39,410 nt of DNA from the NCBI GenBank assembly GCA_003251635.1, contig QKEW01000011.1:1-39410 (forward strand), read 5' to 3'. The notes under the pieces were generated by a model, which saw nothing but the letters and a program-made list of their open reading frames with translations, did no database searches and was not told the origin of the DNA. Of this stretch, positions 13,407-15,725 are shown piece after piece. The stretch is from a bacterium (GTDB taxonomy: Bacteria > Patescibacteriota > Minisyncoccia > Moranbacterales > GWC2-37-73). Numbering within the stretch: the stretch's first letter is position 1; the number at the start of each line of letters is the position of its first letter. A program made the position numbers and the translations under genes.

Positions 13407-13419
13407 TTGAGGGAACTTG

Positions 13420-13446
13420 GCAAGCACAACATGGAGTTGTGCTTGC
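13420..13446 (+). other. Strong hairpin between tuf and rpsJ, no T tract
   Basis: GCAAGCACAAC (13420-13430) and GTTGTGCTTGC (13436-13446) are perfectly complementary with a 5-nt loop, 13 nt after the tuf stop. It is not followed by Ts, so it is more likely an RNA-processing or 3'-end-protecting element, or a partial terminator lowering read-through into rpsJ. Confidence 0.6.
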
Positions 13447-13497
13447 AATCGTTCACTTAATAATAAGTGTATAAATTAAATAATTTTTTTGACATCG

Positions 13498-13830
13498 ATG
13501 GTAGCGAAAAAAACGCAGCAAGAATCTGGAAGCCGAATAAGAATAAAAATCAAGGCTTACGATAATAAGGTTATCGATCAGTCAGCTAGAAAAATAGTTG
13601 AGACTGCTGAGAGAACCGGAGCTTCGATAACCGGACCAGTGCCCTTGCCGACTGAAATTCATAAGGTTACAGTTAACAAATCAACTTTTGTACACAAGGA
13701 CTCTCGTGATCAATATGAAATGCGAGTTCACAAAAGATTGATTGATATATTGGAACCAAGTCCGAAAACGATTGAAAGTCTGACTAATCTCGAATTACCG
13801 GCTGGAGTGGATATTGAGATCAAGATGTAA
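13498..13830 (+). CDS. rpsJ: Small-subunit ribosomal protein uS10
   Basis: uS10 is part of the 30S head and, with NusB, of antitermination complexes. The 110-residue product carries [37 protein letters not shown] and [19 protein letters not shown]. The ATG at 13498 is taken as start; a TTG three codons upstream is less likely. The N-terminus has about eight extra residues over E. coli S10. First gene of the S10 part, separated from rplC by 201 nt of structured sequence. Confidence 0.96.
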
Positions 13831-13890
13831 ATAAGTTTTGGGTTGAAAAATAAAAAAACATTACTGTTAAAAAGAGCGCACTAGTTAAAG

Positions 13891-13969
13891 TCTTGCTTGC
13901 AAGATACTCAGCTAGCCAGGATGAAAAATCACGGATGATTTTAAAAGCTGGCTTGCAGGCCGGTTTTTT
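13891..13969 (+). promoter_or_regulatory. Candidate attenuator in the rpsJ-rplC gap (antiterminator/terminator)
   Basis: Seen in order: a small hairpin TCTTG/CAAGA (13891-13904). Arm A, GCTAGCCAG (13911-13919). An inner hairpin AAAATCA-CGGA-TGATTTT (13925-13942). Arm B, CTGGCTTGC (13948-13956), which pairs with A except for one mismatch. GCCGG (13959-13963), which pairs with CTGGC (13948-13952) and is followed by six Ts. Because B can pair with A or with GCCGG but not both, the first fold would prevent the terminator and the second would form it. This is the classic attenuation design. The ligand, perhaps an r-protein such as uL4 or uL3, is inference. Confidence 0.6.
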
Positions 13970-14031: not shown

Positions 14032-14592
14032 ATGAAATTTATTATCGGAAAAAAATTAGGAATGACAACCATTTATGACAAGGAAAAGGGAGCTTTGAAT
14101 GTTACCTTGATTGAATGTCAGTCAAATAAAGTTTCTTTTTTGCGAAATACTGAAAAAGATGGATACGATGCTGTTCAGTTAGAGGTTGCAAAAACTAAAA
14201 ACAAGGTTTTCAAAAAAGAATTTCGAGTTGAGAAGGTTGGTGATTTCCAGTTGGAACAAGAGATCTCAGTTGATGTTTTTTCTCTGGGTGACAAAGTGAA
14301 GGTTAGCGGAATTACCAAGGCTAAAGGCTTTCAAGGAGTTGTAAAAAGACACGGTTTTGCTGGAGCGCCAAAAACTCATGGACACAAACATGATCATCGA
14401 GCTCCAGGATCAATCGGGGCACAACAGCCACAGCATGTGATCAAAGGTAAGAGAATGGCTGGTCGCATGGGAGGTGTTCGAGCTAGCTCAATGAATATTC
14501 AAGTAGTTTACATTGATAAAGATAAGAATATTCTAGGTGTTAAGGGTGCGGTTCCGGGAGTGGCGGGAAGGTTAGTTGAAATCGTTGGATAA
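14032..14592 (+). CDS. rplC: Large-subunit ribosomal protein uL3
   Basis: uL3 binds near the peptidyl-transferase centre and starts 50S assembly. The 186-residue product begins MKFIIGKKLGMTTIYDKEKG and has the signature VVKRHGFAGAPKTHGHKHDHR, then MAGRMGGVRASSMNIQVV. It is about 20 residues shorter than E. coli L3. A TATAAA (14023-14028) sits 3 nt before the ATG, and no Shine-Dalgarno is seen. It lies downstream of the putative attenuator, so that element would control everything from here on. Confidence 0.97.
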   Translation: MKFIIGKKLGMTTIYDKEKGALNVTLIECQSNKVSFLRNTEKDGYDAVQLEVAKTKNKVFKKEFRVEKVGDFQLEQEISVDVFSLGDKVKVSGITKAKGFQGVVKRHGFAGAPKTHGHKHDHRAPGSIGAQQPQHVIKGKRMAGRMGGVRASSMNIQVVYIDKDKNILGVKGAVPGVAGRLVEIVG

Positions 14593-15308: not shown

Positions 15309-15725
15309 ATGGCTTTATTTAATAAGGAAAAAAAGAATAGCGAGATTGAGGAGAAGAAGGAAGAAGTGAAAAGTTCTCCAAAAAAGACCGAAAAAAAATC
15401 AGTCAAAAAAGAGGAGATAGTTTTTTCTTCAAAAAATTCCGAAATTGCTCAGAATGTTTTGTTGGAACCCTGGATTACTGAAAAGACTCATGGCTTAATT
15501 GCTCAGAATAAATATGTTTTCAAGGTAACTAAGACAGCTACGAAGAAAAAAGTGAAAATGGCAGTAGAGGGAATTTACGGAGTTTCAGTTGAGAAGGTAG
15601 CCATGGTTAAGATTAATGACGAAGCTAAGTATTTTGGACGGCGCAAAGGAGTTAAGTCTGGTTATAAAAAAGCCATATTAAGTTTAAAAGTGGGTGATTC
15701 GATAAAAATTTTTCAAGGAGCTTAA
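15309..15725 (+). CDS. rplW: Large-subunit ribosomal protein uL23 with Lys/Glu-rich N-terminal extension
   Basis: uL23 sits at the tunnel exit and docks trigger factor and SRP. The conserved domain begins about residue 50 with LLEPWITEKTHGLIAQNKYV and includes VEGIYGVSVEKVAMVKI and GRRKGVKSGYKKAIL. Before it come roughly 48 residues rich in Lys, Glu and Ser (NKEKKNSEIEEKKEEVK), not found in E. coli L23; total 138 residues. The extension is probably disordered and at the surface near the exit. Confidence 0.95.
   Translation: MALFNKEKKNSEIEEKKEEVKSSPKKTEKKSVKKEEIVFSSKNSEIAQNVLLEPWITEKTHGLIAQNKYVFKVTKTATKKKVKMAVEGIYGVSVEKVAMVKINDEAKYFGRRKGVKSGYKKAILSLKVGDSIKIFQGA

Follow-up and report, generated by a model that had tools for sequence, protein, structure and literature searches.

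The 201-nt gap between rpsJ and rplC was analyzed within a 39,410-nt stretch of DNA (the window) from a member of Candidatus Moranbacteria (Moraniibacteriota), an order within Patescibacteria, with a genome of 0.9 Mb. The genes, as named by NCBIfam, follow the order fusA, tuf, rpsJ, the 201-nt gap, rplC, rplD, rplW, rplB, rpsS, rplV and rpsC. Most other gaps of the operon measure about 17-61 nt, and the length of this one had been singled out in an earlier reading of the letters alone (the sequence-only reading), which proposed a transcription attenuator there. The product of rplW (L23; window 15309-15725) carries about 45 additional N-terminal residues ahead of its conserved domain. The flanking genes and the features of the gap are as follows.

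13498..13830, + strand: rpsJ (uS10), the upstream gene; NCBIfam equivalog PRK00596 and TIGR01049 above cut-off
13875..13919, + strand: aptamer-like domain as a whole; match to covariance model R1, 49.8 bits, E 1.6e-8
13881..13886, + strand: P1 stem, 5' strand (CTAGTT); pairs with 13910-13915 and covaries in relatives
13887..13892, + strand: core, 5' strand (A AAGT C), AAGT nearly invariant in alignments of relatives
13893..13902, + strand: P2 stem-loop (TTG CTTG CAA), variable in sequence and length, with double-sided changes at pairs
13903..13909, + strand: core, 3' strand (G ATACT C), ATACT nearly invariant in alignments of relatives, with a 2-nt bulge
13910..13915, + strand: P1 stem, 3' strand (AGCTAG), also part of the antiterminator; at least 2 bases pair with the terminator arm or loop in 97/116 relatives
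13911..13919, + strand: antiterminator, 5' arm (GCTAGCCAG); pairs with 13948-13956 at 8/9 positions, and the arms appear to coevolve
13925..13942, + strand: inner hairpin AAAATCA/TGATTTT within the antiterminator loop; variable in relatives
13948..13956, + strand: antiterminator, 3' arm (CTGGCTTGC), which is also the 5' arm and loop of the terminator; from the fold and arm coevolution
13944..13969, + strand: intrinsic terminator AAAGCTGGC / GCCGGTTTT with U-tract; -10.9 kcal/mol
14032..14592, + strand: rplC (uL3), the first gene that would be controlled; NCBIfam naming of ORFs

The motifs named in the sequence-only reading lie exactly where it had placed them: GCTAGCCAG at 13911-13919, CTGGCTTGC at 13948-13956, GCCGG at 13959-13963, six Ts at 13964-13969, and AAAATCA/TGATTTT at 13925-13931/13936-13942. 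Its two arms were correct, but only the 3' half of the element had been seen and the conserved 5' half, at 13881-13910, was missed. Folded as a single sequence, the gap does not stand out (folding z-score -0.46), and the case therefore rests on comparison with relatives; the hairpin was also absent from the list returned by a generic terminator scan of the window. A match to rplC was found in 138/142 relatives, and the rpsJ-rplC gap was taken from 130 loci. Judged by these compared sequences, the gap element stands out far more than chance would allow.

The putative sensor is a single long hairpin (13881-13915), upstream of the arms noted earlier, which consists of P1, an asymmetric core and P2 and starts about 50 nt past the rpsJ stop codon in the window. 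In the core, A-AAGTC faces GATACT-C and forms A-U, G-C, a two-base bulge, U-A and C-G. The consensus for the order reads [C/T]TNGTT-N-AAGTC, a variable hairpin, GATACT-N-AACNAG-C, a variable stretch, the terminator arm, and a hairpin with a T-run. In a seed alignment of 25 sequences made by MAFFT without structure, 96.6% of cells are paired, and covariation is 0.382, against 0.166 when shuffled and at most 0.12 when slid. Model-based alignments are biased towards the structure; in one such alignment of 90 sequences, 96% of cells are paired and covariation is 0.312 (0.145 shuffled, at most 0.10 slid). For 67 sequences covering both orders in which the element occurs, covariation reaches 0.437 (0.193 shuffled, at most 0.13 slid). 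The element has a conserved secondary structure with covariation support, as is required of a ribosomal-protein leader, and the compensatory changes that the sequence-only reading had made the test of its proposal are present and strong in both P1 and P2. The pair 13892:13903 is fixed as C-G in the first order and is G-C, A-U or G-U in the second, thus AAGU and AUACU remain as the near-invariant bases.

The element is widespread within a narrow range of organisms. A second covariance model, R2, matched 117/122 loci of the window's order and 14/16 of a second order of the same class, counts that include the sequences on which the model was trained; a count by eye of gaps with the element was similar. 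None of the 8 loci from further orders was matched by R2. In genomes sampled evenly from the class (286) and the phylum (380), significant matches are confined to the two orders, bar one chance match in coding sequence; a weak match in another class (G587, L207), located in what seems to be coding sequence and not near rplC, was taken as chance. The model R1 has a single match in the whole window genome (E 3.8e-7), the sole significant one in the window as well, and the surveys returned one aptamer match per genome, always between rpsJ and rplC. No true aptamer copy away from this gap was found in the window genome or the surveys. An exact pattern searched over about 85,000 genomes occurs in 57 stretches, 38 of them in Patescibacteria and all of these beside rpsJ or rplC. 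The other 19 lie in other phyla, none near rpsJ or rplC, a number close to the chance expectation of about 14 according to a hand estimate from the size of the pattern. The gap was thus found to be conserved in relatives in the sense the sequence-only reading had asked for, with the element kept between rpsJ and rplC, and its placement in cis upstream of ribosomal-protein genes is consistent throughout.

The first arm of the sequence-only reading, GCTAGCCAG, coincides in part with the P1 3' strand, therefore P1, the antiterminator and the terminator are predicted to be mutually exclusive: P1 shares bases with the antiterminator, and the antiterminator with the terminator. The exclusion of the last two through the shared arm CTGGCTTGC had been claimed before and is recovered in the folds computed for the window and its relatives. 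Among the 116 relatives with a callable terminator, the segment from the P1 3' strand to the terminator loop folds as an antiterminator hairpin with a mean z of -3.2 against dinucleotide shuffles; at least 4 long-range antiterminator pairs are found in 102 of them, and in 97 of these at least 2 lie inside P1. The terminator hairpin is at -6 kcal/mol or better in 101/116. As had been proposed, the second fold has the sequence of an intrinsic terminator, a G+C-rich hairpin followed by a T-run, and the AAAATCA/TGATTTT hairpin sits within the antiterminator loop, its sequence varying among relatives. In many relatives, e.g., L002 (AACTAGCCAG with CTGGCTCGTT), it is the loop of the terminator that is complementary to the P1 strand. 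In L108-L112, L120 and L124, which are part of one family, the terminator is laid out differently and an antiterminator is not evident.

If the two antiterminator arms pair with each other, then arms from the same genome should fit better than arms exchanged among genomes. Own arms give -10.0 kcal/mol and permuted arms -8.4 kcal/mol (sd 0.17), a difference reached in 0 of 5000 permutations, and the result holds on 40 cluster representatives (p<1e-4). A cruder first version, with inconsistently extracted arms, gave no signal and was superseded by this test. The arm-swap result supports coevolution of the antiterminator arms. In the window, the transcript up to the terminator loop is computed to fold as the antiterminator and the full stretch as the terminator, which suggests an expression platform exclusive with the sensor fold, as expected of a ribosomal-protein leader. 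On this comparative evidence for structure, conservation, location and three-way exclusivity, we regard a structured attenuator as very highly probable.

The computed energies of the two states in the window are similar, -18.7 kcal/mol for the off state (aptamer and terminator) and -19.3 kcal/mol for the on state (P2/core and antiterminator). This is compatible with an attenuator that has no ligand and provides fixed read-through, or responds only to polymerase speed, NusA or the translation of rpsJ, in which case S10 and EF-Tu would be made in excess over the rplC group. The short distance from the rpsJ stop codon to the element (median about 48 nt) and the 60/136 gaps with no room for a separate promoter fit such an arrangement as well. 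It would leave unexplained, however, why AAGU and AUACU are invariant across two orders despite freely changing helices, and we consider it improbable. The best sigma-70-like scores in the gaps are overall no better than those of shuffles (mean z 0.06); because of this, and of the gaps that leave no room, a dedicated promoter is not claimed. A promoter-like block, GGGCTTGCAT..TTTAATATAGATAAGTT, lies just upstream of the aptamer in L004, L006, L011, L012, L015, L016, L026, L027 and others. It is common to relatives of the same family, with TATAAT in L026, but was not seen in the window and does not occur throughout the order.

Other elements were observed in the gaps of this operon. The tuf-rpsJ gap (window 13409-13463) holds a conserved bulged hairpin, with TTGAG.GAAC / GTTCACTTAA as outer stem around an 11-bp variable stem and with no T-run; similar hairpins occur in most relatives read (65 loci), and another family has the variant TATTCTTT..TATAGAGTA. 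This hairpin may be another leader, that of rpsJ, or a site of processing. Since it is conserved, several RNA elements may take part in the control of the operon. It also shows that structured boundaries are common in the operon, and could be taken to mean that the rpsJ-rplC element too serves RNA processing or mRNA stability at an intercistronic boundary, its T-run hairpin being the mark of a 3' end and not of regulated termination. Such a role, which is very unlikely in our judgment, would not call for antiterminator arms that have coevolved and pair into P1. Within the rpsJ-rplC gap, L007, L028 and L214, from three families, share a similar insert of more than 100 nt downstream of the terminator, with long inverted ends (CCCGC...ATCGCC[T]GCGGC...GCGGGATGCTCAT...CTCGCAG), which resembles an interspersed mobile repeat. 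Repeats of the ACGAATTACGAA type occur in runs in the gaps of L010, L013, L022, L026, L029 and others.

The reading we favor, and believe to be probable, is that of a ribosomal-protein leader that acts by transcription attenuation inside the str-S10 transcript, with an effector most likely encoded downstream, L4 in the first place. RNA polymerase moving past rpsJ would transcribe the aptamer (P1, core and P2). When the effector is scarce, the later CTGGCTTGC arm would capture the 3' strand of P1 and form the antiterminator, and transcription would proceed into rplC-rplD-rplW-rplB and beyond. Effector in excess would bind the core and keep P1 closed, which would block the antiterminator, let CTGGC pair with GCCGG, and stop transcription at the T-run near 13969, before rplC. 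A bound effector that holds P1 closed should free the terminator arm, therefore the expected response is repression by excess effector, as in known ribosomal-protein feedback. Termination in vivo, this direction of response and the ligand are inferred. A lineage-specific leader ahead of rplC, as the sequence-only reading put forward, agrees well with an element that is conserved, shows compensatory changes, occurs in two orders only, sits before rplC alone and has exclusive folds; its ligand would be a ribosomal protein.

That the element sits before rplC and nowhere else, whichever genome is considered, suggests that the effector is a product of the S10 operon, and we hold a ribosomal protein to be likely, to about the same degree as the leader itself or slightly more. 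Among the proteins encoded downstream, L4 (rplD) is ranked as most likely, followed by L3 (rplC). L4 is favored because it is the best-documented controller of the S10 operon (PMC10931766); as a specific assignment made by analogy it is tentative, and we put it at slightly below an even chance. It is possible, though rather less so than L4, that the aptamer senses a ligand never shown for a ribosomal-protein leader, such as uL3, another protein of the S10 operon, the upstream S10 (NusE) or a small molecule. In that case, the ancestor of the two orders of Patescibacteria would have evolved a new sensor class, which would have taken over the rplC group from control at the usual position before rpsJ.

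Counterparts of the core were sought in the organism's own rRNA. A motif scan of the 16S and 23S rRNA for AAGU/AUACU in helical context found no convincing counterpart, nor did a search of the rRNA loci with the covariance model, filters off, find a convincing match; a short likeness, GATAGCGAACTAG, in domain I of the 23S rRNA lies in a junction, not a helix, according to a partial 23S alignment. Ribosomal-protein leaders commonly, though not necessarily, resemble the rRNA binding site of their ligand; that no such likeness was found at the level of sequence or model speaks against the favored reading and is one point for a riboswitch in a ribosomal operon, i.e., the same switch with a small molecule, an ion or a tRNA-like signal as effector. 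The compact domain, the strictly conserved asymmetric core and the P1/antiterminator/terminator layout typical of riboswitches are others. Known riboswitches, however, usually recur before several genes of one pathway. The association with metabolic or transport genes that marks metabolite riboswitches was not found in any of the surveys: in every genome surveyed the element occupies one site, before rplC, and never precedes a metabolic gene. Eckert and Weinberg (2020) noted that some cis-regulators of ribosomal-protein genes may bind no ribosomal protein (PMC7247131). All considered, a riboswitch seems unlikely, and a ribosomal protein remains the preferred effector.

Bacterial L10, L19 and L20 leaders consist of an aptamer-like domain followed by a mutually exclusive antiterminator and terminator. 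The Patescibacteria element resembles these attenuation-type leaders of Rfam in the same succession of an aptamer-like domain and exclusive folds; unlike them, it matches no Rfam 15 family, neither at the gathering threshold in the window nor at a permissive E-value in the gap and in eight relatives. In the S10 operon of E. coli, control by uL4 acts partly via premature termination in the leader (PMC10931766). The two systems are alike in that structures upstream of an intrinsic terminator control the S10 operon (PMC10931766). The E. coli leader, however, precedes rpsJ, is long, uses NusA and also exerts translational control, whereas the Patescibacteria element follows rpsJ and has a compact hairpin sensor, an invariant core of its own and a clear antiterminator. 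The sequence-only reading had set its candidate apart from the E. coli-type position upstream of rpsJ, rightly so. In Archaeoglobi, a candidate L4 leader ahead of rplC-rplD-rplW-rplB was rated borderline by its authors (PMC7247131). It is likened here by description only: it shares with the Patescibacteria element the position before these genes and an assignment to L4 by precedent, and differs in being archaeal and borderline. Eckert and Weinberg (2020), who assign ligands by L4-type precedent, warn that precedent can fail (PMC7247131). A search of the main text of open-licence papers yielded no published RNA element at rpsJ-rplC in Patescibacteria; an earlier report is possible. Sequence comparison thus offers a candidate new RNA family of attenuation-type ribosomal leaders.

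Little is known of how ribosome synthesis is balanced in Patescibacteria, which are small uncultured cells with reduced genomes. The element provides a sharply defined, covariation-supported candidate switch on their main ribosomal-protein operon, widespread in two orders. It is also a concrete RNA on which binding and transcription can be assayed without the organism in culture. Should L4 prove to be the ligand, the element would be one more case in which RNA has solved the same feedback independently; otherwise, a new ligand would be added to those of ribosomal-protein leaders.
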